Positions 12,080-21,658 of a stretch of 64,000 nucleotides of DNA are shown here, piece by piece. The position numbers and the translations under genes are program-made. The DNA lies in contig NZ_NIPW01000024.1 in the NCBI RefSeq assembly GCF_002196855.1, positions 62,001 through 126,000 on the forward strand. The letters are read 5' to 3'. Below the pieces are notes generated by a model. It saw only the letters and a list, made by a program, of their open reading frames with translations. It did not search any database and had not been told where the DNA came from. Positions within the stretch are counted from its first letter, which is position 1, and each line of letters opens with the position of its first letter. The stretch is from Haematobacter genomosp. 1. GTDB lineage: Bacteria > Pseudomonadota > Alphaproteobacteria > Rhodobacterales > Rhodobacteraceae.

Positions 12080-12101
12080 GAAAAAGTGGCAGCCCGTAGG
12101 G
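12080..12101 (+). repeat. attL: 22-bp direct repeat of the tRNA-Glu 3' end
   Basis: The 22 bases at 12080-12101 are identical to 21577-21598. The last 18 of them are the reverse complement of the 3' end of tRNA-Glu(TTC), including its CCA. Here only this fragment exists, followed by unrelated sequence, as expected for the distal attachment site of an element integrated into the tRNA. Divergence begins at 12102, although GTCGA a few bases further on is also shared. Confidence 0.88.
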
Positions 12102-12295
12102 TTGTCGATTTTTCCTTTGAGAACAACGGCGGAAACTGTCCAACTCGGGGATCCGCCCCCCTTGATAAGCAAGACAAAAATCGGGATTTGTCCAACGCTC
12201 TGGCGGGGCCTGAACCCCTCCCGGCTGCGTCTGGTTCCTATGACCTGACCTCCCGCGAACGAGGGAAGATCGCCCAATCGCGGCGGTCGGAGCGG

Positions 12296-12646
12296 ATGAT
12301 CCGAGAGCGGCAGGCGACGGCGTTGGCTTTTGCCATCCGGGACACGCATCCCGATGATGCGCGCCAGCTGCTGACCGCCGCCCTCATCGATCTTTCCGCC
12401 GGTATGCCCCGCGTGCCCTTCGAGGACGTGCGCGAGGATGCGCGCTGGTGGTCGGGGATGGCGACACCGGCCGAACTGTTGGCCTACCTGTCCGCTGCCC
12501 TCCGGGAACTCGGTGGCAAGGCGCTGCATCGCAACCACCGTAAGCAGCTCTTCGCCGCGCTCTGGGAGAGCTTCGAGGAGGAGGATCGGCAGGCCTTCAT
12601 CGCCCGAGTCGATCCGACCGGCCAGTTCCGGAGGAAGGCGCAATGA
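12296..12646 (+). CDS. Hypothetical protein, first gene of the integrated element
   Basis: I do not recognise this protein. From the ATG at 12296 it has 116 residues, rich in charged residues and alanine, with no signal peptide or membrane segment. The frame is open upstream into attL, but a GTG at 12086 would start translation inside the tRNA-derived repeat, so I prefer the internal ATG, which has GGAG three bases upstream. The stop overlaps the next start by four bases (ATGA), so it is probably translationally coupled to the RepA-like ATPase and may act with it in replication. The exact start is uncertain. Confidence 0.6.
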   Translation: MIRERQATALAFAIRDTHPDDARQLLTAALIDLSAGMPRVPFEDVREDARWWSGMATPAELLAYLSAALRELGGKALHRNHRKQLFAALWESFEEEDRQAFIARVDPTGQFRRKAQ

Positions 12647-13740
12647 GCAACGATTTTGACAAGGTGACGCCGCTCCGGGGTGATCCTGCCAAGCTGAAGC
12701 CGCGGGCGCAGGCGCTCCTAGGCAACATCCGCCATGCGCGCGACGTCCAGCCGAAACTCGAACGGCGCTACCTCATCAAGGACGTTCTCTATGAGGCAAC
12801 GCTCTCCATGGTCTACGCCCCGTCTAACGCCGGGAAGAGCTTCTTCGCCATCGACATCGCGCATCACATTTCCAAGGGCCGGAAATGGTTCGGGCGGCGC
12901 GTGAAGGCGGGCCGGGTGCTCTACATTGCGGCCGAGGGCGGTCCTGCATTTGATAACCGCGTCTCGGCGCTGGACGAGCCAGAAATGTGGGTCCTGAACA
13001 GCGCGATGACGCTCACCGGCCGGGATTCGCAAGGCGGGCCGATGGTGGAGGTGGTGCAGCACTTGGGGGCGGTGGGCGGCGAGCCTTTCGCGCTGATCGT
13101 CATCGACACGATGGCGCGGGTGATGGGCGGCAGCGACGAGAACGCCGCGCCCGACATTGCCGACCTGGTGAGGAACATGGATATGATCCGTCGCGCGACC
13201 GGCGCGCATGTCATGCTGGTGCACCACACCGGCAAGGATCAGAGCCGCGGCGCGCGGGGGCATTCCTCGCTGCGCGCGGCGATCGATACGGAAATCGAGC
13301 TGAGCCGCGATGACTTCGGTCTGATCACGGCGAAGCTCACCAAGCAGCGGGACGGAGCGACCGGCGGTGAGTTCTCCTTTACGCTGCGTCAGGTGGAGTT
13401 GGGCCGCGATCAGGATGGCGATCCGGTCACGACCTGCCTTGTCGAGCCGGCGGTGCCGTCAGAGGACGGACGCGCGGTGGTGACGGAAGCGGCGCGCAAG
13501 GCCCTGTCCGTTCTCGACAAGGCGTTGGCGGCGGAGGGCGAGATCGTCCGCAAGCCGCAATATCCCGGCGGGCGCTGCATCCCGCTGGAACGCTGGCGTG
13601 AGACCTGCCTCGAACCCGGCGTGATCTCGGATGCCGAGAGCCGGGAGGCCCGGAGCCGCACCTTCCTGAAGTGCCGGGAGCAGCTGGTAGAACGCAAGCT
13701 GATCATGGTGCGCGATGACCTCGTATGGAGGGTGGAATGA
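12643..13740 (+). CDS. RepA-like AAA family ATPase (AAA_25 type), probable replication helicase
   Basis: This 365-residue RecA-fold ATPase resembles the RepA-like proteins of plasmids and phage satellites. Walker A is APSNAGKSF at residues 59-67, a form usual in the AAA_25 family. Walker B is ALIVIDTMARV near 150-160, and a sensor-like VMLVHHTGKDQSRGARGHSS follows, also typical. The C-terminal 90 residues may be a winged-helix-like DNA-binding part. It starts with a 4-base overlap on the upstream gene. An array of GGGCCG-type repeats with an AT-rich patch begins 18 bases after its stop, so it may bind and unwind an adjacent origin; this role is inferred. Confidence 0.8.
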   Translation: MSNDFDKVTPLRGDPAKLKPRAQALLGNIRHARDVQPKLERRYLIKDVLYEATLSMVYAPSNAGKSFFAIDIAHHISKGRKWFGRRVKAGRVLYIAAEGGPAFDNRVSALDEPEMWVLNSAMTLTGRDSQGGPMVEVVQHLGAVGGEPFALIVIDTMARVMGGSDENAAPDIADLVRNMDMIRRATGAHVMLVHHTGKDQSRGARGHSSLRAAIDTEIELSRDDFGLITAKLTKQRDGATGGEFSFTLRQVELGRDQDGDPVTTCLVEPAVPSEDGRAVVTEAARKALSVLDKALAAEGEIVRKPQYPGGRCIPLERWRETCLEPGVISDAESREARSRTFLKCREQLVERKLIMVRDDLVWRVE

Positions 13741-13757
13741 CCCGGCCCGGCACCTCA

Positions 13758-13898
13758 GGGCCGGTTCGGGCCGGTCGGGCCGATGCATCGGCCCTACACG
13801 TCCGGGCCGGTCAGGGCCGATCCGGGCCGATTTGCGTCAACCATCTGAAATACAATGATATTGATCTCTTCCGCTTCGGGCCGGGTCAGGGCCGGCCC
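13758..13898. repeat. Iteron-like GGGCCGRT array with AT-rich core, candidate replication origin
   Basis: Direct copies of GGGCCG(G/A)T start at 13758, 13768, 13777, 13804, 13814 and 13824, mostly 9-10 bp apart. One inverted copy makes a perfect 18-bp palindrome (13777-13794). About 40 bp of AT-rich DNA (13831-13870) follow, then further GGGCCGG copies at 13878 and 13889, with outlying copies near 13922 (inverted) and 14003. Iterons beside an AT-rich unwinding zone directly after a RepA-like gene are the classical layout of an iteron origin. A long reading frame across this area is composition-driven and I do not call it a gene. Confidence 0.6.
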
Positions 13899-13937
13899 CA
13901 GATGCAAGGCGTTATGTGGTCCGGCCCGAGGGAGGGA

Positions 13938-13970
13938 GAGGGGAAACCCCCCTTTAGGGGGGTTCCCCTC
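13938..13970. other. Strong GC hairpin downstream of the iteron-like array
   Basis: An inverted repeat GAGGGGAA(A)CCCCCC-TTTA-GGGGGGTTCCCCTC has 14 paired positions, one bulged A and a 4-base loop. There is no T tract, so it is not a standard intrinsic terminator. It may end ATPase transcription or form part of the origin. The surrounding stretch 13741-14359 has no convincing gene. Confidence 0.5.
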
Positions 13971-14359
13971 CCCGTCCGGGACACGCCCGGCCCGGGATTG
14001 GCGGGCCGGTTGCCAAGCCGCGAGGGGAAGCACGGGTTTTCCTTCGATGGGTCAGGGATGCCGCGATGGCATTCGGCTGCCGGCAGCACCCCGGGGGGTG
14101 GGTCGAAAGTCTGGGAAGCGCTTCAGCCGGGACCCGCGTCCCCCTCATTCGCAGGTTTTTTTTCGCGGAGGCGTGTTTTTGGCGGGGGTGAGAGAGGGGC
14201 AAGGGTGCACTGTCGGGAGGGTCTTCAATAAAATGAAGTAAAATCAGTATATTATGATCCGTTCTCCGCTGTTCAACTGTGAGAACCGGGCCGGAACTCT
14301 GCATATTTTTCGCGGCAACAGGATTTGTGAGCCGGTGCCGAAATCGAGGAGAAAACGAG

Positions 14360-14620
14360 ATGAAGGACACGACGAAACAGCCCGGCCCTCAGGTGCTGAA
14401 GGCTTGTGATGAGGTGGTAGAGACTGCGGCGCGGGCCATGGTGGGTCTCGGCGCTTCGCCTGAGATGGCGATCGACCGGATGCTGACCTACTGCGGCGCG
14501 AGCGTCGCCTCCTGGCACGGTTCCAGCGAGGCGGCCGACCTGTTCCGGCGCCTGGCCGACAACATCGAAGCCGGGATCTTCGCGCATCTCGACCGCACCG
14601 CCAAGCACGTGCGCCAATGA
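14360..14620 (+). CDS. Small hypothetical protein of the element
   Basis: This 86-residue, mostly helical protein has no recognised domain. The start ATG has a good GAGGAG ribosome-binding site about eight bases upstream. The sequence contains KACDEVVETAARAMVGLGAS and a C-terminal helix rich in Ala, Asp and Arg. It lies upstream of the capsid genes, and its stop overlaps a 55-codon frame by four bases. No function can be assigned. Confidence 0.6.
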   Translation: MKDTTKQPGPQVLKACDEVVETAARAMVGLGASPEMAIDRMLTYCGASVASWHGSSEAADLFRRLADNIEAGIFAHLDRTAKHVRQ

Positions 14621-14784
14621 CCCTTGTGCCGTTCAGCGGCGGTGCTATGGTGGCGGACGGATTGATTGGCGGCTGCACTGGTATCCGGGCAGCGAACCGA
14701 CTCTCCGCCTTCGACAGCACCGGCAACCACACCGGGCGCGAGGTTCACGGCAGGCGATTTCCGCCTGTGGTTTTCCATGTCTGA
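14617..14784 (+). CDS. Possible small coupled ORF upstream of the prohead protease
   Basis: This 55-residue frame starts with an ATG that overlaps the preceding stop (ATGA) and ends 10 bases before the protease start. It has no recognisable domain. The four-base overlap is the only argument for translation; it could equally be a chance frame spanning the leader of the capsid genes. Confidence 0.3.
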   Translation: MTLVPFSGGAMVADGLIGGCTGIRAANRLSAFDSTGNHTGREVHGRRFPPVVFHV

Positions 14785-14794
14785 GGCGGGACAC

Positions 14795-15469
14795 ATGAAC
14801 CCCAAGTTTCAGAACGACCTCCGGCTCGCTCCGGCCTTCTCCTTCGAGGTGAAGGCAGAACCCACGGGCCATATCTCGGGCTACGCCAGCACCTTCGGCG
14901 GTGAGCCCGATCGCCACGGCGACGTGGTATCGAAAGGCGCCTTCGCCCGGACGCTCGATGAGCACCGGGCGCAGGGCACGCTCCCGGCCATGCTGTGGAG
15001 CCATCAGATCGAGAGTCCGATCGGCAAATGGCTGACGATCGAGGAAGACCCGGCGGGCCTTTTCGTCGTCGGGCAGATCAACCTCAAGACGGCGATGGGC
15101 CGGGAGGCTTTCGAACACATCCAGGCGGGCGACGTTGGCGCCTTCTCCATCGGCTACGTGGTGCCCGAGGGTGGGCGGCGCTATGTTGGCAAGGGCGTCT
15201 TCGCGCTCGACGAAGTGGAGCTTGCGGAAATCTCTATCGTCTCCGTGCCGGCCAATCGGCGCGCCCGGATCACCTCCGCCAAGCATATCGGCTCGAAGGC
15301 GGAGGCGATCAGCTTCCTGCGCGAAGCAGGCCTGCCGAAGGCGGCAGCCGCGCGCTTCGCCGCCGGTGGCTTCCCGGCCCTCTCCCAACCCGAAATCGAC
15401 CATGACCGCGCGCTGAAGCTCGTCCAGCGGATCGAGCGCGCAACCCTCTCTCTCAGGAGTACCAAATGA
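14795..15469 (+). CDS. HK97-family prohead (procapsid) protease
   Basis: This serine protease is expected to cut the delta domain from the capsid protein during head maturation. It has 224 residues from the ATG at 14795, chosen because GAGGCGGGA lies just upstream; an in-frame ATG at 14777 has no good ribosome site. Family landmarks are GYASTFGGEPDRHGDVVSKGAF, the catalytic histidine in MLWSH (H70) followed by PIG, and the catalytic serine in GAFSIGY (S118). VELAEISIVSVPAN is also typical. The stop overlaps the capsid gene start by four bases (ATGA), so protease and capsid protein are translated as a pair. Confidence 0.92.
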   Translation: MNPKFQNDLRLAPAFSFEVKAEPTGHISGYASTFGGEPDRHGDVVSKGAFARTLDEHRAQGTLPAMLWSHQIESPIGKWLTIEEDPAGLFVVGQINLKTAMGREAFEHIQAGDVGAFSIGYVVPEGGRRYVGKGVFALDEVELAEISIVSVPANRRARITSAKHIGSKAEAISFLREAGLPKAAAARFAAGGFPALSQPEIDHDRALKLVQRIERATLSLRSTK

Positions 15470-16650
15470 CCAAGCACTTTCCCCTGACGCCCGGCATTCG
15501 GGCAGCGATCGCCGCCGGCCAGCACCTGCGCCGCAAGGATGCCGCCGATCCGCTCGAACTGATCATGCAGAAGTTCGGTGACCATGCGGACGAGATTCAG
15601 CGCCAGCTGAAGAGCAATAACCAAGCCGTCGCGGGCGTGCGCGCCCAGATGGACGACATGGAGCAGAAGATGGCCCGCGGTGGCGGTGGCATGCCGTCCG
15701 CACCGGACAGCTGGGGTGAACAGTTCACCAAGGCCGATGGGCTGAAGGCCTTCTCCGACGAGGCACACACCCGACCGGGCCGCCTCAGGGTCGAGGTCAA
15801 GGCGATCACCAATGGCAGCGGCAGCGCCGGGGCCCTCGGCTGGTCCACGCTGGATCCCGAGGTTCCCCTTCTGGGACGGCGCCGGCTGACGATCCGGAAC
15901 CTGATCCCCACGGTTCAGGTCTCCAGCAACCTGGTCGAGTACGCCCGCCAGGTGACGCGGCCGATCGGAGCGGCGACAGTGGCGGAGGGTGCGCAGAAGC
16001 CGGAAAGCTCGATGACCTTCGAAGGCGTGGCGCTGCCCACGCAGGTCATCGCGCACTGGGTCACGGCTTCCCGGCAGGTGCTCGATGACATCCCCTATCT
16101 TCGCAGCCTGATCGACAGCGAACTGCGCTACGGTCTGGGCGAGGTCGAGGAAGGGCAGCTGCTCAACGGCAACGGCACCTCCCCGAACCTGCTGGGCATC
16201 ATCCCGCAGGCTACGCCCTTCTCTTCGCCGATCGCGCTCGCCGACATGACGCTGATCGACCAGGTGGGCGCCGCAGTGCTTCAGAACGCGCTGGCCGACT
16301 TCCCGGCCGATGGCATTGTCATGCACCCGTCCGACTGGATGCGCATTCGCCTGCTCAAGGACGCTTCTGGTTGGTATCTGATCGGCGACCCGACCGGGAA
16401 TGACGTCCAGCGGCTCTTCGGGCTGCCTGTGGTGGCCACGAAGGCCATGCCGGCGGGCAACTTCCTTGTCGGCAACTTCCAGGTCGGCGCGACGATCTAC
16501 GACCGCTGGGCGCCGATTGTGGAGGTTTCGACGCAGCACGCGGACTACTTCACCCGCAACCTGGTCGCGATCCTCGCGGAAGAGCGGCTGGCCTTCGCTG
16601 TGAAGCAGCCCACGGCCTTCACCTACGGCGCCTTCGACTATCCCGAGTAA
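15466..16650 (+). CDS. HK97-fold phage major capsid protein
   Basis: This 394-residue protein is the major head subunit. Residues of about 28-72 are predicted coiled coil (the scaffolding-like delta domain). A glycine-rich linker (RGGGG) and then the HK97-fold body follow. Typical elements are VEYARQ, VAEGAQKPES, IAHWVTASRQVLDD, LLNGNGTSPNLLGI and FPADGIVMHPSDWMRI, with GDPTGNDVQRLFGLPVV near the end. The full length argues that it is functional. No portal, terminase or connector gene lies next to it, unlike in ordinary phages. A short GC hairpin (16659-16677) follows the stop. Confidence 0.95.
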   Translation: MTKHFPLTPGIRAAIAAGQHLRRKDAADPLELIMQKFGDHADEIQRQLKSNNQAVAGVRAQMDDMEQKMARGGGGMPSAPDSWGEQFTKADGLKAFSDEAHTRPGRLRVEVKAITNGSGSAGALGWSTLDPEVPLLGRRRLTIRNLIPTVQVSSNLVEYARQVTRPIGAATVAEGAQKPESSMTFEGVALPTQVIAHWVTASRQVLDDIPYLRSLIDSELRYGLGEVEEGQLLNGNGTSPNLLGIIPQATPFSSPIALADMTLIDQVGAAVLQNALADFPADGIVMHPSDWMRIRLLKDASGWYLIGDPTGNDVQRLFGLPVVATKAMPAGNFLVGNFQVGATIYDRWAPIVEVSTQHADYFTRNLVAILAEERLAFAVKQPTAFTYGAFDYPE

Positions 16651-17207
16651 GGCGCAGGGCGGGCCTCTCAGGCCCGCTCATGACGAGACAGGCAGGATGC
16701 GCCTGCGGGTCACTCCGGCTCTCGAAGCATCCCCGTCAGGCGGTGAGTGGGCAAACCCCGTCAGGCTGCGGCCTGGAGGAACTCTCGGGAGTGCAGAGAG
16801 GCCCGGCGTGATGAGTGTCGGGCCTTGGGCGTCTCGAGGGCTGACATGTATGCGGAGTTGGGACACCTGGCGTCCAGGAGATGGGTGCCGGGTTCTGAGG
16901 TGACGTCACCTTGTGCGTAGGTCGAATTCTCAAGCTCTCTTCCTTTCTCACTAAGCCCCTCAAGCCCAATAAGAACCAACAAAAGCAAGATGATGATCGA
17001 TCAGTATTTTGAGGCGCAAGATATGGGGCGCGGGTGGGTTCGAAAGGCTGCGAAGACTGGGAAAGCGACAGCTCCGAGGCGCATCTTGACAAGTATTTTC
17101 AAAAGTGACTCACCGAATTCTTGCCTGAGTCACTAGCCTACGCTATATGCGTATTGCGCACGGGAGCCTGACATCTATGGCGTCGGGGCTACGGCCCCGC
17201 CCGGCGT
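16651..17207. other. 550-bp palindrome-rich gap inside the element, no convincing gene
   Basis: No reading frame here resembles a known protein. There are several dyads: a GCGGGCC/GGCCCGC hairpin (16659-16677), AGGCCCG/CGGGCCT (16799-16825), CCTGG/CCAGG (near 16866-16878), a perfect 14-bp palindrome AGGTGACGTCACCT (16898-16911), and the 9-bp pair at 17104-17134. Another hairpin, CGGGGC-TACG-GCCCCG, is at 17184-17199. In an ordinary phage, connector and tail genes would follow the capsid gene here, so this may be a deletion scar or a regulatory/packaging region. Confidence 0.45.
17100..17134 (-). terminator. Probable terminator of the XRE-DUF3800 operon
   Basis: A perfect 9-bp inverted repeat AGTGACTCA/TGAGTCACT with a 13-base loop lies at 17104-17134. 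On the minus strand it is followed by TTTTG. It lies about 75 bases after the DUF3800 stop codon, in the right orientation to end that transcript. The loop is longer than usual, so an operator role cannot be excluded. Confidence 0.5.
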
Positions 17208-17960
17208 CTAACTCCTCAGAAGATCGCGTCGGAACTTGTCCTTTGGATGATGGACGATACCATGGCCCTGAATGGTTCCATCACGCTTTCGCCTGATTCG
17301 CGGCTTGAGGATAGCGGCCAGTTCCCCATCTGTAGTTGAATAGGCGCGATGGATGGCACCGGCCACGTAATCTGCAAGCTGAATGCCAATCGAGTGGCAC
17401 GAATCCTGCAGGAATAGCCCCTCAATAAACCGATTGTAACCTGAAATCACCTTGCCGGTCCCGCCGGTGAGGTTGTCGTGATGCGCGCGAAACAGCCGGT
17501 CATTGTCCCGCCCGCGATGGTCTGCGATGGTGATGCCAAGGCTCTTGTTGTCCTGCAAAAAATACTGAAACCGCTCGGAAAGCGGCTTGTAGGCGAAGTG
17601 GTAAAGCTCCTGCTGGTTCTTCACCGAGGCATATTCGAACGCAGCACCAATATCCGTGACGCATGCGATGATGGTCATTGGCGACTTCGCGATGACATGG
17701 GCGAAGCTACGGCTCAGTGCTTTGCGTTCCTCGGCACTTTTTCCGAGCATAGGGTTTTCAGCTGACGAGTTGTGTGGCGAGAAATATCGCCACTTCAGTT
17801 CACCCTTTAGCCTGTGCGAGGTGCAGAAGCCTCGCACATGATCAGCAATCCCGCGCCAGTCTGTGTCACGGATGATTACAGCGCCCAATGTGAAGTAAGG
17901 GCGCTCGGGGTTCGGTCGGGAGGGCGGGGTGCCGCTTTCGTCGATGAAGCAGAAATGCAT
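17208..17960 (-). CDS. DUF3800 protein, RNase H-like fold, possible defence effector
   Basis: This 250-residue protein begins with FCFIDESGTP, the hallmark of the DUF3800 family. It contains ITIADHRGRDNDRLF and ends with HSIGIQLADYVAGAIHRAY, where the aspartates match the expected acidic metal-binding site of an RNase H-like fold. The start ATG overlaps the stop of the upstream XRE regulator (TGATG), so the two are coupled. DUF3800 proteins often occur on mobile elements and near defence genes, and a nuclease-type effector held in check by its XRE partner is plausible. No activity can be proved from sequence. Confidence 0.75.
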   Translation of the reverse strand: MHFCFIDESGTPPSRPNPERPYFTLGAVIIRDTDWRGIADHVRGFCTSHRLKGELKWRYFSPHNSSAENPMLGKSAEERKALSRSFAHVIAKSPMTIIACVTDIGAAFEYASVKNQQELYHFAYKPLSERFQYFLQDNKSLGITIADHRGRDNDRLFRAHHDNLTGGTGKVISGYNRFIEGLFLQDSCHSIGIQLADYVAGAIHRAYSTTDGELAAILKPRIRRKRDGTIQGHGIVHHPKDKFRRDLLRS

Positions 17961-18190
17961 CAGACTTTCCTCAGCCTCACTCCCGCACCGCCACCGTTCT
18001 CTGGGATGAACTGGACGCCTGCGGCTTCGAGAGCAGCCTGCAGCTTCCGCAGTGTCTCCGCCTGACCTCCCGACTGCCCATTTTCGAACCGACTGATGGT
18101 CATCGTGGAGACGCCGGACAGTTCTGCGACCTCACGCACACCCAAGCGAAGGGCGGCACGGGCCATACGGCATTGATCGGCTGTTATCAT
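17960..18190 (-). CDS. XRE-family helix-turn-helix regulator
   Basis: This 76-residue Cro/C1-type DNA-binding protein contains the helix-turn-helix VREVAELSGVSTMTISRFEN at about residues 18-37. The ATG at 18190 is preferred over an upstream in-frame TTG. It overlaps the DUF3800 start and is divergent from the small gene at 18277. A dyad GTATTCA-N10-TGGATAC lies in the intergenic space beside a consensus -35 TTGACA, so it probably represses the divergent promoters. It may also act as the antitoxin-like partner of DUF3800, which is inference from coupling. Confidence 0.82.
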   Translation of the reverse strand: MITADQCRMARAALRLGVREVAELSGVSTMTISRFENGQSGGQAETLRKLQAALEAAGVQFIPENGGGAGVRLRKV

Positions 18191-18204
18191 GGTATGCAAA
18201 ACCG

Positions 18205-18236
18205 TTGACAGGGTATTCAGACTGTGTTTTGGATAC
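18205..18236. promoter_or_regulatory. Divergent promoter/operator between XRE gene and small gene
   Basis: A consensus -35 hexamer TTGACA (18205-18210, plus strand) overlaps the start of a dyad GTATTCA (18213-18219) / TGGATAC (18230-18236). The half-sites match at six of seven positions. The position between two divergent genes suggests control by the XRE protein. Confidence 0.45.
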
Positions 18237-18276
18237 AGCGTAGTAGAAACCGGATTACCTGTAAACGGAGCTCAGA

Positions 18277-18471
18277 ATGCCGAACCTCATTTCGGCAGCC
18301 GTCCCCGGCTTGCCTTCTGCCACCCTTGCCGAGATTCACGACTTGCTGACCCTCGCGCTCGACGCGACGGAGAAGGAATTCGGCTACACCGACACCGAAC
18401 GCGAGGCCCGCAGCTACACCCGCCGCGCCCGCGCCCGGATCACCAGCCTGCTGGCACCCCGCGCGATCTGA
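18277..18471 (+). CDS. Small hypothetical protein of the element
   Basis: This 64-residue protein has no recognised domain. The ATG is preceded by GGAG at a suitable distance. The sequence has a helical N-terminal part (ATLAEIHDLLTLALDATEKE) and an arginine-rich C-terminal half (SYTRRARARITSLL), compatible with nucleic-acid binding. It is divergent from the XRE-DUF3800 pair and 45 bases upstream of the Tat-signal gene. Function unknown. Confidence 0.55.
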   Translation: MPNLISAAVPGLPSATLAEIHDLLTLALDATEKEFGYTDTEREARSYTRRARARITSLLAPRAI

Positions 18472-18516
18472 CGCGCGCCCGGCTTTCTCCGACATAGCTC
18501 AAGAACGGAGCCTGTG

Positions 18517-19320
18517 ATGAAGAACCCGATTTCCGGGACCGATCCCGGTATGCCTTCGCGCCGCGCCATCCTGAAGGGCGTCGCCGTTGCCCCGATCATC
18601 GCCCTGCCGACTGCGGCGCTGCCATTCGCTCCGCCGCCTGCCGCCCCGCAGCCTGCCGTTGCGGAGAATCCGAAGCTGCTGGCGCTGGGGGAGGAGTTGC
18701 CGCGCGTGGAGGCAGCCTATCGCGAGGCCGTCGCTGCCTGGGATGTGATGTGGCGGGAATGGGAGCCGAAATGGCCGCTCGCGCCCGATGTCTGCACCGG
18801 TCAGCGCGCGTCGTATGGGTCCGACATCGAGCGCGACCTCAGGGGCGCGGGTCTGTTCAGGGAAGGGCAAGACGAGCCCCTGCGTGTCATGTCGCTGGCG
18901 TATATGGAGTGGAACAGGGAGAGATGCCTCGAGAAGCTCGCAAAGAATGACCGGCGCAAGCGGAAGGTGTCGGCAAAGACAGTCGCCTACTGGCAGTCTG
19001 AAGTGGAGCGCATGGATCGCGCGATGCTGCTTCTGCCTGGCTACCTGGAGGAGTGCGACAGGATCAGGCGGGCCTCCGACTTTCAGACCATCAACGAGGC
19101 GCGGAATGTGGCGTCCGAAGGCGTGTTCACCTTTGCGCAAAAGGTGCTGTCCGAGCCATCCACCACGATTGCCGGAATTCGGGTCAAAGCCGAGGCGATA
19201 GCCGTGATCGGCCGCATGCGCCGCTGGGATGCCAGCATATGGAGCATGCGCTACGCCGCCGGGCCACCGGCAGAGAGCATGATCGTGATGCTGGGGAACG
19301 CGATGCTCGAGGTGGTGTGA
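18517..19320 (+). CDS. Hypothetical protein with an apparent twin-arginine signal
   Basis: The 267-residue product starts MKNPISGTDPGMPSRRAILK. SRRAILK resembles a Tat motif, and it is followed by a hydrophobic stretch (GVAVAPIIALPTAALPFAPP). The remainder is helical and rich in Trp, Arg and Glu, with no family I recognise. The ATG at 18517 has GGAG seven bases upstream; a GTG directly before it is the alternative. A predicted exported protein on a small mobile element is unusual and could alter the cell surface, but the signal may be fortuitous. Confidence 0.6.
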   Translation: MKNPISGTDPGMPSRRAILKGVAVAPIIALPTAALPFAPPPAAPQPAVAENPKLLALGEELPRVEAAYREAVAAWDVMWREWEPKWPLAPDVCTGQRASYGSDIERDLRGAGLFREGQDEPLRVMSLAYMEWNRERCLEKLAKNDRRKRKVSAKTVAYWQSEVERMDRAMLLLPGYLEECDRIRRASDFQTINEARNVASEGVFTFAQKVLSEPSTTIAGIRVKAEAIAVIGRMRRWDASIWSMRYAAGPPAESMIVMLGNAMLEVV

Positions 19321-19393
19321 GCGCGGGGGGCCGCGGTGGGAGATTGTTCCGGCATAGGGAGCTAGTCAGGAATTGCGTGATTCCAGGCTCAGT

Positions 19394-19448
19394 ATAAACT
19401 TTCGATAAGTTTATCCTTCCCGGCCAGATGAATTTATTGTAAGTTCAT
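19394..19448 (+). promoter_or_regulatory. Pair of 21-bp operator-like dyads upstream of the MerR-like gene
   Basis: Two related 21-bp palindromes lie in an AT-rich promoter region. ATAAACTT-N5-AAGTTTAT is at 19394-19414, and ATGAATTTA-N3-TAAGTTCAT is at 19428-19448. They align with each other and share the right half-site AAGTTYAT, with centres 34 bp apart, which puts them near the same face of the helix. They end 25 bases before the gene start, so autoregulation by the MerR-like protein is the simplest explanation. Confidence 0.6.
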
Positions 19449-19472
19449 TTAGCCATACAGGGGGATCAGTCA

Positions 19473-20066
19473 GTGCCGGAACTTTTTTCGCGAACTTTCA
19501 CGGTGACAGAGGTTGCCGAGGCTCTAGGGGTCGACTCGAAGGATGTGCAGAATTACGCGGCCCGCGGTCTCATCGTGGGCCACAAGGGGGAAGCGCCGGC
19601 CGGCAAGGGCCGTGCGCGCGCGTTCACGTTTTTCAATGTGATGGAGATCGCGGTTGCGATCTCGCTCAAGAACTTCCTCACCATTCCGCCGATGAACGCT
19701 TTCATGATCGCGGGCCGGTTTGCCCACGGCGGCCAGGGGTTGCCGATCGAGCGGAAACCGGCGCTGCCGTTCCATCACCGTCACGGCCGCACCATTCTGG
19801 TGTTCACGGCCGATCAGGACGGGGAAATCATCTGGCGCCCAGGGGCCGACATCTTCGCTGAGGCCCGGCACGCTCTGAACGGTGCGTTGAGCTTCGGCAC
19901 GGTGGACGTGAGCACGCTCTTTGAGCGTGTCGTTACGAGGCTCGGTTTCGATCCTCGTGCGGTGCTGGATGCGGCCTATCCGGGGAGCTGGGCTGACCAT
20001 GCTGCTTACCAAGAAGGTCCGCTTCCCGTTTCCTTTCGACCGGATGACGTTTTTTGTGACCGATGA
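19473..20066 (+). CDS. MerR-like helix-turn-helix regulator of the element
   Basis: This 197-residue protein has an N-terminal winged helix-turn-helix resembling the MerR family: FTVTEVAEALGVDSKDVQNY at about residues 9-28. GRARAFTFFNVMEIAVAISL follows, equivalent to the wing and next helix. The C-terminal part is not recognised. The start is a GTG preceded by GGGGGATC. It probably controls the element's excision or replication genes, like AlpA/Xis-type MerR proteins on other islands, but this is inferred from position between the cargo and the integrase. Two operator-like dyads precede it. Confidence 0.7.
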   Translation: MPELFSRTFTVTEVAEALGVDSKDVQNYAARGLIVGHKGEAPAGKGRARAFTFFNVMEIAVAISLKNFLTIPPMNAFMIAGRFAHGGQGLPIERKPALPFHHRHGRTILVFTADQDGEIIWRPGADIFAEARHALNGALSFGTVDVSTLFERVVTRLGFDPRAVLDAAYPGSWADHAAYQEGPLPVSFRPDDVFCDR

Positions 20067-20253
20067 AATCCTGCGCGATACGGAGGCGCATACGGTCTAC
20101 AAGCGGAGCCTCTTCTTGGCCGACGATGCCAGCCCGAACGGCATGAAGCTCGTGCTGCAGGAAGAGTTGGTCGATGATGGCTCTCTGTTTCTCAAACGCC
20201 GTCGTTCGCTTTGTCCGGCTCACCAGTTTGACCGTGCCAAGGGGCCTGTCTGA
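19999..20253 (+). CDS. Small hypothetical protein overlapping the MerR-like gene
   Basis: This 84-residue frame overlaps the end of the upstream gene by 68 bases. A start at 20044 would give 69 residues and a 23-base overlap. It contains FFVTDEILRDTEAHTVYKRS and a basic C-terminus. No domain is recognised. The position in the regulator-integrase string suggests it is translated, but the start is uncertain. Confidence 0.45.
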   Translation: MLLTKKVRFPFPFDRMTFFVTDEILRDTEAHTVYKRSLFLADDASPNGMKLVLQEELVDDGSLFLKRRRSLCPAHQFDRAKGPV

Positions 20254-20313
20254 GGTCCCTCAATTGCAACCTTAGCCGATCAAGTGACGACTGGCGAAAA
20301 TCCGGAACATTCC

Positions 20314-20493
20314 ATGTCCTACCCTCGTGCCGCCCTCAAGCAGTCCGACCTGACCCGCTACGCGAAGGCGATGCAGGCGGCGGGCATTGCGGAGTGGCGG
20401 GTGGAGGTTCTGCCGAATGGCAAGCATGTCATCATCGCGGGGAAGGTGGATGAAGCTTTCGCCGGGCCGGATCCGGATGAGTTGCTGAAATGA
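20314..20493 (+). CDS. Small protein upstream of the integrase
   Basis: This 59-residue protein contains QSDLTRYAKAMQAAGIAEWR and VLPNGKHVIIAGK. It resembles a class of small proteins often found immediately upstream of tyrosine integrases in alphaproteobacterial islands. The stop overlaps the integrase start by four bases (ATGA). A role assisting integration or excision is plausible but unproven. A GTG at 20284 would add ten residues. Confidence 0.6.
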   Translation: MSYPRAALKQSDLTRYAKAMQAAGIAEWRVEVLPNGKHVIIAGKVDEAFAGPDPDELLK

Positions 20494-21563
20494 CCCGGAG
20501 AAAGAACCCTTATCCTGGCGTCCGAAAGAACATCGTGAAGGGCCGTATCTACTGGCGGTTCGAGGCTGGCGATTATCGGTGCAACATACCGGGTCCCTAC
20601 GGCACCGCTGAGTTCAAAACGGCTTAAGAGGCCGCGCTGGCGGGGGTGAAGGCCCCCCGAAGCACCGCTGATCCTGACACGCTCGCCTGGCTTGTTGAGC
20701 AATACCTTAGCAGCTTGAAATTCCAGAACCTCTCTCCGTCGAGAAAGCGCAGTATCCGGGGCGAACTGGACTGGCTCCGGGAGATGGCCGGCAAGTACCA
20801 CTATGTGCGTTTGCAGGTGCGCCACGTCGAAGCGTTGATGGCGAAGAAGACCGGCCCCGTTGCGGCGAATACAGTGAAGAAGAACCTGTCGATGCTCTTC
20901 AACTTTGCGGCCAAGAAACTTGGCTACACCGGGCCGAACCCGGCCCGCCATGCAGAGAAGATGAAGACCAATCCGGATGGCTATCACACCTGGACGGATG
21001 CGGAGGTAGATCGTTTCCTCGCGCGGCACGCTGTGGGAACGAAGGCGCGGCTGGTCCTCCTGCTGGCGCTGAATACCGGCATGTCGCGGCAGGACCTCTG
21101 CCGGGTAGGTTGGCAGCATGTGACGCATAAGGAAGGTCGCGCCCGGATCGCTTACAAGCGCGCGAAGACCTCGGTTGCGGCCGACCTGCCGATTCTGCCG
21201 GAGTTGGCGGAGGAGTTAGACAAACTTCCCTCTGACCGGATGCTGTTCATCACTCAGGACGCACGGCCGATCGGCTACAAGCCCGAGACGCTGGGCAATT
21301 GGTTTCGGGACCGTTGCGGGGAGGCCGACGTGCCTGGATCGCTCCATGGTCTGCGGAAAGCGGGGGCCACGCGCCTCGCGGATGCGGGGGCCACGAACTG
21401 GGAGATCGCCTCTTATCTCGCACATGCCGACACGAAACAGGCGGACACCTACACGAAGAAGGCGGACCGATCACGGTTGGCAGATAGCGGGTTCGCGAAG
21501 CTTGGGAGCGTGTCCAATTTCCCTGAAAAGTTGGACAGAAAGGCCGGAAAAGCCGATGAATAA
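20490..21563 (+). pseudogene. int: Tyrosine-recombinase integrase with in-frame stop at codon 46
   Basis: Reading from the ATG at 20490 (4-base overlap with the upstream gene) gives a typical alphaproteobacterial island integrase N-terminus: MTRRKNPYPGVRKNIVKGR. A TAA at 20625-20627 then interrupts it. The same frame continues without further damage to 21563 and keeps the catalytic residues, numbered from the ATG: R200, H286-x-x-R289, H312 and Y321. Either a point mutation has inactivated it or translation restarts at the GTG at 20646, giving 305 residues that lack part of the arm-binding domain. It lies beside attR and reads towards tRNA-Glu, as expected for the enzyme that integrated this element. 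Confidence 0.85.
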
Positions 21564-21576
21564 CAATAACTTACAG

Positions 21577-21598
21577 GAAAAAGTGGCAGCCCGTAGGG
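21577..21598 (+). repeat. attR: 22-bp repeat within the tRNA-Glu 3' end
   Basis: These bases are identical to 12080-12101 and overlap the last 15 positions of the minus-strand tRNA-Glu gene, including CCA. Integration here leaves the tRNA functional because the element supplied an identical 3' end. Confidence 0.88.
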
Positions 21599-21658
21599 GA
21601 GTCGAACCCCTCTTTTCAGGTTGAAAACCTGACGTCCTAACCGATAGACGAACGGGCC
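21584..21658 (-). tRNA. tRNA-Glu (anticodon TTC)
   Basis: The minus strand gives a 75-base tRNA including CCA. The acceptor is GGCCCGT/ACGGGCT, the D-arm contains TATCGGTTAGGA, and the anticodon loop TTTTCAA has anticodon TTC. The T-arm is AGGGGTTCGACTCCCCT. It is the integration target of the neighbouring element; its 3' end lies inside attR. Confidence 0.96.

Follow-up and report, generated by a model that had tools for sequence, protein, structure and literature searches.

The window considered here, a 64,000-nucleotide stretch of Haematobacter genomosp. 1 DNA (contig NZ_NIPW01000024.1), contains a 9.5-kb island at 12080-21598 that is bounded by 22-bp direct att repeats (attL, 12080-12101; attR, 21577-21598), the second of which overlaps the 3' end of the tRNA-Glu gene (21584-21658, minus strand) that served as its insertion site. 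The original prediction had singled out a prohead protease and an HK97-type major capsid protein (MCP) gene as a capsid-only morphogenesis module, and that module is one portion of this bounded island. In one sister genome (G297) the match begins exactly at 21577 and a single uninterrupted copy of the site is present, which is the empty site, and in another (G394) only an integrase fragment is found at this location.

Features between the att repeats lie on the plus strand unless stated otherwise. The leftmost gene (12296-12646) encodes a hypothetical protein without a Pfam or PHROGs match, and its start is uncertain, with an open frame running from 12086 inside attL. It is followed by the replication gene (12643-13740), which encodes a RepA-like AAA_25 ATPase (Pfam E 2e-36; 35% identity to the RepA of a related element, L006) with no match to a primase domain in Pfam or PHROGs. 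Directly after repA, at 13755-13896, are six TCNGGGCCGGT-like iteron-like repeats, five of them within 77 bp, whose location makes them a candidate origin; that role is inferred. Then come a cos-like packaging site (14091-14180) composed of a box at 14095, a 26-bp word at 14126-14151 and a T-tract; a gene for a conserved small helical protein of 86 amino acids that we call CapX (14360-14620); a structured leader RNA (14703-14793) that ends immediately before the protease start; and the genes for an S78-family prohead protease (14795-15469, 224 amino acids) and the MCP (15466-16650, 394 amino acids). Farther right are two minus-strand genes, for a DUF3800 protein that is probably cargo (17208-17960, Pfam E 2e-19) and a helix-turn-helix regulator recognized in the Pfam scan (17960-18199), and then, on the plus strand, a hypothetical protein with a Tat-like N-terminus as judged by eye and no family match over cut-off in Pfam, PHROGs or NCBIfam (18517-19320), an HTH_17/MerR-like protein that might be an AlpA-like regulator (19473-20066; HTH_17 E 5e-5, below the Pfam cut-off) and a tyrosine integrase (20490-21563, Pfam E 1e-14). 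Codon 45 of the integrase frame is followed by an in-frame stop, where the homologue in the related element L102 reads through, and the catalytic part of the integrase is open from 20646. This stop is the only sign of decay seen in the island, and because of it the copy in the window may be trapped or hampered.

The protease and capsid genes are intact, as had been proposed. The protease matches Pfam Peptidase_S78 (E 1e-27, frame scanned as 14777-15466) and exceeds the cut-off of NCBIfam proheadase_HK97, and its H70 and S118 are invariant in all 11 aligned family members. The MCP matches PF05065 (E 8e-50) and TIGR01554 (over cut-off), and the two genes overlap as ATGA, in agreement with the predicted coupling. 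A profile built from the MCPs of 12 family members finds HK97 capsid chains (3qpr, E 3e-101), and since the mature 282-residue HK97 chains align only from profile position 112, a delta-like N-terminus is present in the MCP. Structure prediction for the MCP gave a mean pLDDT of 39.6 and was set aside. The closest pair of related elements, L102 and L104, has dN/dS values of 0.080/0.63 for the MCP, 0.046/0.33 for the protease and 0.185/0.54 for CapX (silent sites are nearly saturated in more distant pairs), and such values support purifying selection on the protease and MCP gene pair. That the shell might instead be an encapsulin-like compartment adopted by the cell is suggested by a weak match of the MCP to a family 3 encapsulin model; at 67 bits this falls far under the model's cut-off of 180, the MCP passes the cut-off for phage MCPs, and its neighbors are a protease, att sites, an integrase, a replication gene and a cos-like site. 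On that score we reject an encapsulin identity, and adoption as a compartment seems to us scarcely credible. Prohead protease or capsid genes were also seen on small plasmids of Paracoccus and Roseomonas (NZ_CP157016.1, 17.5 kb, and CP099479.1, 16.9 kb).

No convincing match to a portal, terminase or tail protein was found among the window proteins with Pfam, PHROGs or NCBIfam. In the PHROGs scan of 10 proteins only the 19473-20066 protein gave packaging-class matches besides the protease and MCP, two of them, to helix-turn-helix entries of the small terminase (TerS; E 0.04 and 0.062); it matches Pfam Terminase_5 with E 0.15. Portal, terminase or tail remnants at 16651-17207, or a full-length prophage with the same flanks, would have overturned the original prediction; the former were looked for and not found, and neither was such a prophage, the sister genomes having only the empty site and the integrase remnant (above).

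Searches with the MCP and protease identified 16 further elements that have such an MCP without a portal or large terminase (TerL) of their own. They come from Methylobacterium (L098, the same as L007), Tranquillimonas (L096), Mesorhizobium (L097), Palleronia (L099), Tianweitania (L100), Sphingomonas (L101), Aureimonas flava (L102 and L104), Tsuneonella (L103) and a Mesorhizobium MAG (L108), and the other members are L006, L064, L008/L036, L040, L126 (in genome G669) and L133. L097 no longer has a protease, L108 and L133 are truncated, and a 72-amino-acid remnant (L112) was excluded from the total of 17. Because the MCP was what identified the elements, any relatives that lack it would have escaped notice. 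The elements look rare in the genomes sampled: among 385 alphaproteobacterial genomes only the Haematobacter genome itself and G669 have a match at 1e-90. An integrase is present in 14 of the 17 by phmmer and was read by eye in L096; none was seen in L099 or in the cut contig L133.

Nine elements have clear att repeats (window, 22 bp; L006, 50; L096, 26; L098, 47; L100, 48; L101, 50; L102, 18; L103, 53; L104, 48), and their start-to-start lengths range from 9,311 to 11,801 bp, the longest being L098, which includes a gene pair read as a transposase. A tRNA gene lies at the end of eight of the nine, L096 being the exception. Four more elements sit in prophages: L064 (6313-18397), which has an 11-bp repeat, splits a portal gene into two parts, one aligning to profile positions 19-294 and the other to 289-411 of 434; L008/L036 (L008 up to 10642) adjoins a TerL part (profile 327-577 of 578); L108 (up to 9266) adjoins another (profile 99-576); and L040 (5616-15800) lies after intact TerL, portal and phage MCP genes. 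The bounds of L099, L126, L097, L008, L040, L108 and L133 are estimates or contig ends. The region after the MCP carries variable cargo, with the DUF3800 and regulator genes in the window (17208-18199) and, in L006 (11155-12725), a gene resembling PADLOC Hydrolase-TM (E 7e-31) beside one read as a HAD-type hydrolase. Four elements carry, close to the integrase, a protein whose N-terminus looks Tat-like, again judged by eye (window 18517-19320; L096 14378-14758; L098 14427-14768; L102 15043-15771).

The MCPs of these elements form one lineage. In a tree of 64 rows (out of 90 distinct MCP rows, the 62 that score best in BLAST against the window MCP, plus two) a branch supported at 99/92 separates all 17 element MCPs from the 47 others. 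A portal or TerL gene is upstream in all 43 of those others that have at least 1.3 kb of upstream DNA; of the remaining four, one has a portal and three have less than 0.5 kb upstream. L064 alone among the 17 has a portal or TerL upstream, because it sits in a prophage, and there is almost no upstream DNA to examine in L108 and about 1.1 kb in L036. In a first tree L108, L036 and L040 carried the label of phages without having been inspected, and two changes of state were needed; after that tree had been seen they were relabelled from their gene content as capsid-only elements lying within prophages, and a single change suffices in the tree that also includes L126 and L133.

We searched six-frame open reading frames of at least 30 codons from the 17 elements with HMMs that started from the annotated gene set of Mesorhizobium phage vB_MseS-P1 and took in homologues from 29 phage loci. 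None of the 17 gave a match to HNH, TerL, portal, connector, adaptor, tail terminator or tail tube; the FI, distal tail, hub, megatron and lysozyme models are weak, having just one or two homologues each. The TerS model matched L006 and, weakly (3e-4), L100 on the frame of that element's stronger TAC match; the tail completion (gp10) and TAC models matched L100 and L108; and the tape measure model matched L100, L108 and L064. PHROGs added a tape measure in L096, L126 and L133 and a TerS in L098 and L103; a long protein of L008 (1178 amino acids) had no match. From these matches, single packaging or tail genes have been retained by some relatives and none by the window element, and the claim that it lacks a local portal, terminase and tail holds. 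The tape measure genes, seen without a detected tail tube or terminator, lie at 11392-13446 in L096, 12126-14264 in L100, 12015-14735 in L064, 2266-4167 in L108, 6763-9258 in L126 and 5571-7265 in L133.

These results bear on the possibility, raised in the original prediction, that the locus is a decaying prophage. As the decay of a lone prophage this is rejected, no remnants of lost phage genes having been found in the HMM search and the MCP belonging to the element lineage; the integrase stop leaves some room for decay of this particular copy. A broader version, in which the island is a decaying prophage or a dead satellite and the protease and MCP pair is a leftover, can cite that stop, the integrase fragment in G394 and the reduced state of L097 and L112. 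It must also accommodate the recurrence of this gene set in other species, the single origin of the MCPs, the low dN/dS in the close pair, the absence of remnants of lost phage genes and an intact cos core identical to that of a resident prophage (below), and we consider it quite improbable.

The resident prophage is an HK97-like one on another contig (C3) of the same genome. Its TerL, MCP and portal genes were identified by search and its HNH and TerS genes by HMM, and its connectors, tail, tape measure and lysis genes were read from the gene calls; its MCP is 47% identical to that of the island. The two share one long word, 26 bp identical, at island positions 14126-14151 and between HNH and TerS in the prophage, and the similarity extends over ~90 bp around it (score 84, against a maximum of 32 in 500 shuffles). 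With up to three mismatches allowed, a 21-bp core of this word occurs at only two places in the 4.2-Mb genome, both exact, and a 34-base comparison shows two differences between the window and the resident prophage, against five to eight between the window and six other phages. Among 22 phage loci scanned, the core is present in eight and in every one lies after HNH and before TerS/TerL. We call the site cos because the linear phage D3 sequence, as deposited, has its ends within the core, after a similar box. The available text on HK97 places TerS binding 15-29 bp past its cos cut, beside an A-tract (PMC11331095), and by our comparison with that text the island's T-tract lies at about this distance.

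Other members of the family were scanned for the site with a matrix built from seven of the eight core-bearing loci (L018 was omitted as near-identical to L016), which recovered all seven as top match in leave-one-out trials. It scored 46.9 in the window, 35.0 in L006, 36.2 in L100, 20.8 in L126 and 20.4 in L097, with shuffle maxima of 10-16 (20 shuffles each); with L133 left out, the other 11 of 16 elements were at shuffle level. Across the 17 elements, the box that precedes the core has no mismatch in the window and two or three in L102, L104 and L133, where it stands ahead of a diverged core. Three-mismatch box matches in L098 and L103 were discarded as chance; they are located inside other genes. 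L064 and the region upstream of TerL in its host prophage are similar (score 84, shuffle maximum 30), and crossing the window and L064 satellites with each other's prophages gave only 40 and 21. In some form, then, a helper-type site is present in nine of the 17 elements, and in eight it was not recognized by the matrix or box scan. Shared words near TerL in the host genomes of L096, L097, L099 and L101 were no longer than 14-15 bp, or absent, as in controls, and a TerL family search found nothing in the genomes of L098, L100, L102 and L103 or in G669. The helper-type site in nine elements points to packaging, which weakens the idea that the MCP and protease are chiefly a decoy that poisons helper head assembly and protects the cell, with packaging secondary. 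Interference with helpers is common among satellites in the accessible part of PMC6092414, and L006 carries a defence-like gene (the PADLOC match above, E 7e-31); even so, we judge this explanation very unlikely.

Between the cos-like site and the protease lie two conserved parts, CapX and the leader. CapX is ~85 amino acids long, encoded upstream of the protease, and is predicted to form four helices (pLDDT 81); a fold search gave no PDB match at E ≤ 0.001 (best E 0.87). A model seeded with the window, L096, L099, L100, L006, L102 and L104 proteins found, beyond its seeds, only L133 at E < 0.001. When L101, L103, L098 and L064 were added to the seeds, 13 of the 17 elements matched below 1e-4, 11 of them being seeds, and L008 matched weakly, so the link of CapX to the L101, L103, L098 and L064 group rests mostly on position. 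CapX had no match in 8,797 open reading frames of the 29 phage loci, and the window protein had none at E ≤ 1 in 50,697 phage records.

The gap between CapX and the protease is 78-221 bp in the 12 members compared. A covariance model seeded with the window, L096 and L100 leaders and run on 38 sources (803 kb) gave seven matches at E ≤ 1, the three seeds plus L099 (0.003), L006 (0.015), L098 (0.16) and L126 (0.6), and all lie in this gap. In an alignment of the seven that was fitted to the structure, both partners change in 11 pairs, whereas shuffles gave 4.2 ± 1.5 and none of 500 reached this value; a count of additional pair types was less clear (36 of 500). A second model, run on 39 sources, reached E < 0.001 only in the same seven elements, with weaker matches in a phage locus (L019; 0.16 and 0.99) and, at the correct location, in L064 (1.0), and none in L101, L102, L103, L104, L008 or L040. 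The L133 match (E 0.41) is no better than those of four uninspected viral contigs (E 0.2-0.78), and a match in G706 (E 0.003) was counted as false, since it lies among chromosomal genes read as cobalamin and other housekeeping genes. A strict test of the shape was modest in outcome, with six of 14 sequences meeting the feature against 9-20% of shuffles per sequence. No known RNA family could be assigned; the single sub-threshold match, to a human lncRNA model (E 0.5), was rejected. These comparisons demonstrate, at the level of sequence, that the leader is conserved; a role in controlling translation is an inference, drawn from a fold that closes immediately ahead of the start codon.

Shell genes without genes for filling the shell or attaching a tail, together with the same packaging site as a complete virus resident in the same genome, indicate that the island probably supplies its own shell and borrows the rest. 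We consider it likely that the island is a cos-packaged satellite with its own shell that borrows portal, terminase and tail, its heads being inferred and not demonstrated. On this interpretation, induction of a C3-type prophage, the presumed helper, would be followed by excision of the island and its replication by the RepA-like protein, all of which is inferred. As the cos-like site copies that of the presumed helper, the helper TerS and TerL should cut and package island DNA, which would enter heads built with the shell protein and maturation protease encoded by the island. Judged from the narrow size range of the elements, those heads are probably smaller than the helper's and would hold about one 10-kb copy; portal, motor, connectors and tail would come from the helper, as inferred from their absence in the island. 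The leader, whose fold extends to the protease start, probably sets the timing of protease and MCP synthesis, and our guess is that CapX acts in head size or operon control. The original prediction's example of heads filled by a helper's machinery is supported by the shared site, the element lineage and purifying selection, its heads and their small size remaining inferences. The case is made from DNA alone, no particle, excision or transfer having been shown; whether the island MCP is compatible with the helper portal is unproven at 47% MCP identity, and L097 is without a protease. The integrase stop, the integrase fragment in G394, the eight elements with no recognized site and the four host genomes whose shared words near TerL were at control level weigh against it too. 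In the available text, the capsid gene of the E. coli phage-inducible chromosomal island (PICI) EcCICFT073 is dispensable for transfer (PMC6092414, PMC10111431), which also counts against a satellite of this kind.

A related explanation is that the island MCP co-assembles with the helper MCP and forces it into smaller heads. In the part of the SaPIbov5 account available (PMC8569155), that cos-type satellite carries the helper cos and an HK97-like capsid homologue, Ccm, which has a delta domain and fills pentamers; the island likewise has an MCP and a helper-type cos, and the protease-less L097 would fit. SaPIbov5 needs Ccm alone, with no other SaPIbov5 protein in its heads according to the same text, whereas a protease is retained with the MCP in 11 aligned elements, which suggests independent maturation. 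We regard such redirection as unlikely, if less so than any other alternative considered here, and continue to favor a satellite with its own shell. Whether the 17 elements represent a single old alphaproteobacterial "shell satellite" lineage is a more tentative matter, possible but not something we would assert. Such a lineage would make a whole shell matured by its own protease, with a dedicated leader RNA and a new small protein, and would take portal, motor and tail from another genome, so that its particles would be of mixed origin at the portal vertex; members with a tape measure would also reset tail length or injection.

If the satellite interpretation is right, a candidate helper-satellite pair with a named packaging site is present within one sequenced genome, and capsid-carrying satellites extend to several alphaproteobacterial families, with two unexplained conserved parts, the RNA leader and CapX, added. 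It also raises the question of whether, at 47% MCP identity, the shell of one lineage is able to accept the portal of another, a matter relevant to the way in which heads select their portal and size.

The elements most like the island are the PICIs of Gram-negative bacteria, which in the accessible text are 10-20 kb long, use tRNA or other att sites and carry an integrase, a replication gene and a helper cosN (PMC6092414, PMC10111431); a capsid gene is reported in 21 of 29 reference PICIs (PMC10111431), and PmCI172 makes small heads (PMC6092414, PMC10111431). The island shares with them att repeats, an integrase (with its stop), a capsid gene and a helper-like cos, and at 9.5 kb is just below their size range; its RepA-like ATPase, without a primase domain match, and its HTH_17-like protein, below the Pfam cut-off, are only possible counterparts of the PICI primase/replication gene and AlpA regulator. 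Heads made without a local portal or terminase had been put forward as an even more minimal strategy; so far as the available parts of these papers go, the strategy is less unprecedented than that, since PICIs that have a capsid gene and lack portal and terminase are known (PMC6092414, PMC8569155). The lineage described here is absent among the literature matches listed, most subscription papers being outside their scope. The PICIs described in the text available are gammaproteobacterial, whereas the island is alphaproteobacterial and has the protease and MCP kept together, CapX, the leader RNA and an HK97/D3-type cos. The same limited sources allow three closer comparisons. Like SaPIbov5, the island combines a helper cos with an HK97-like capsid homologue that has a delta domain, but it has its own protease and an alphaproteobacterial host (PMC8569155). 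Like the cfPICIs it encodes its own MCP and protease, but the gene set of cfPICIs further includes portal, connectors, TerS, TerL and HNH (PMC10690885), and the portal, connector, TerL and HNH genes were found in none of the 17 elements. Among its relatives L064, L008/L036 and L108 resemble helper-embedded PICIs (PMC10111431) in lying in prophage portal or TerL genes, whereas the window element lies in a tRNA-Glu gene and not in a helper late gene. Capsid genes in PICIs, the sharing of cos sites and integration into helper late genes are already known; it is their combination here that differs.
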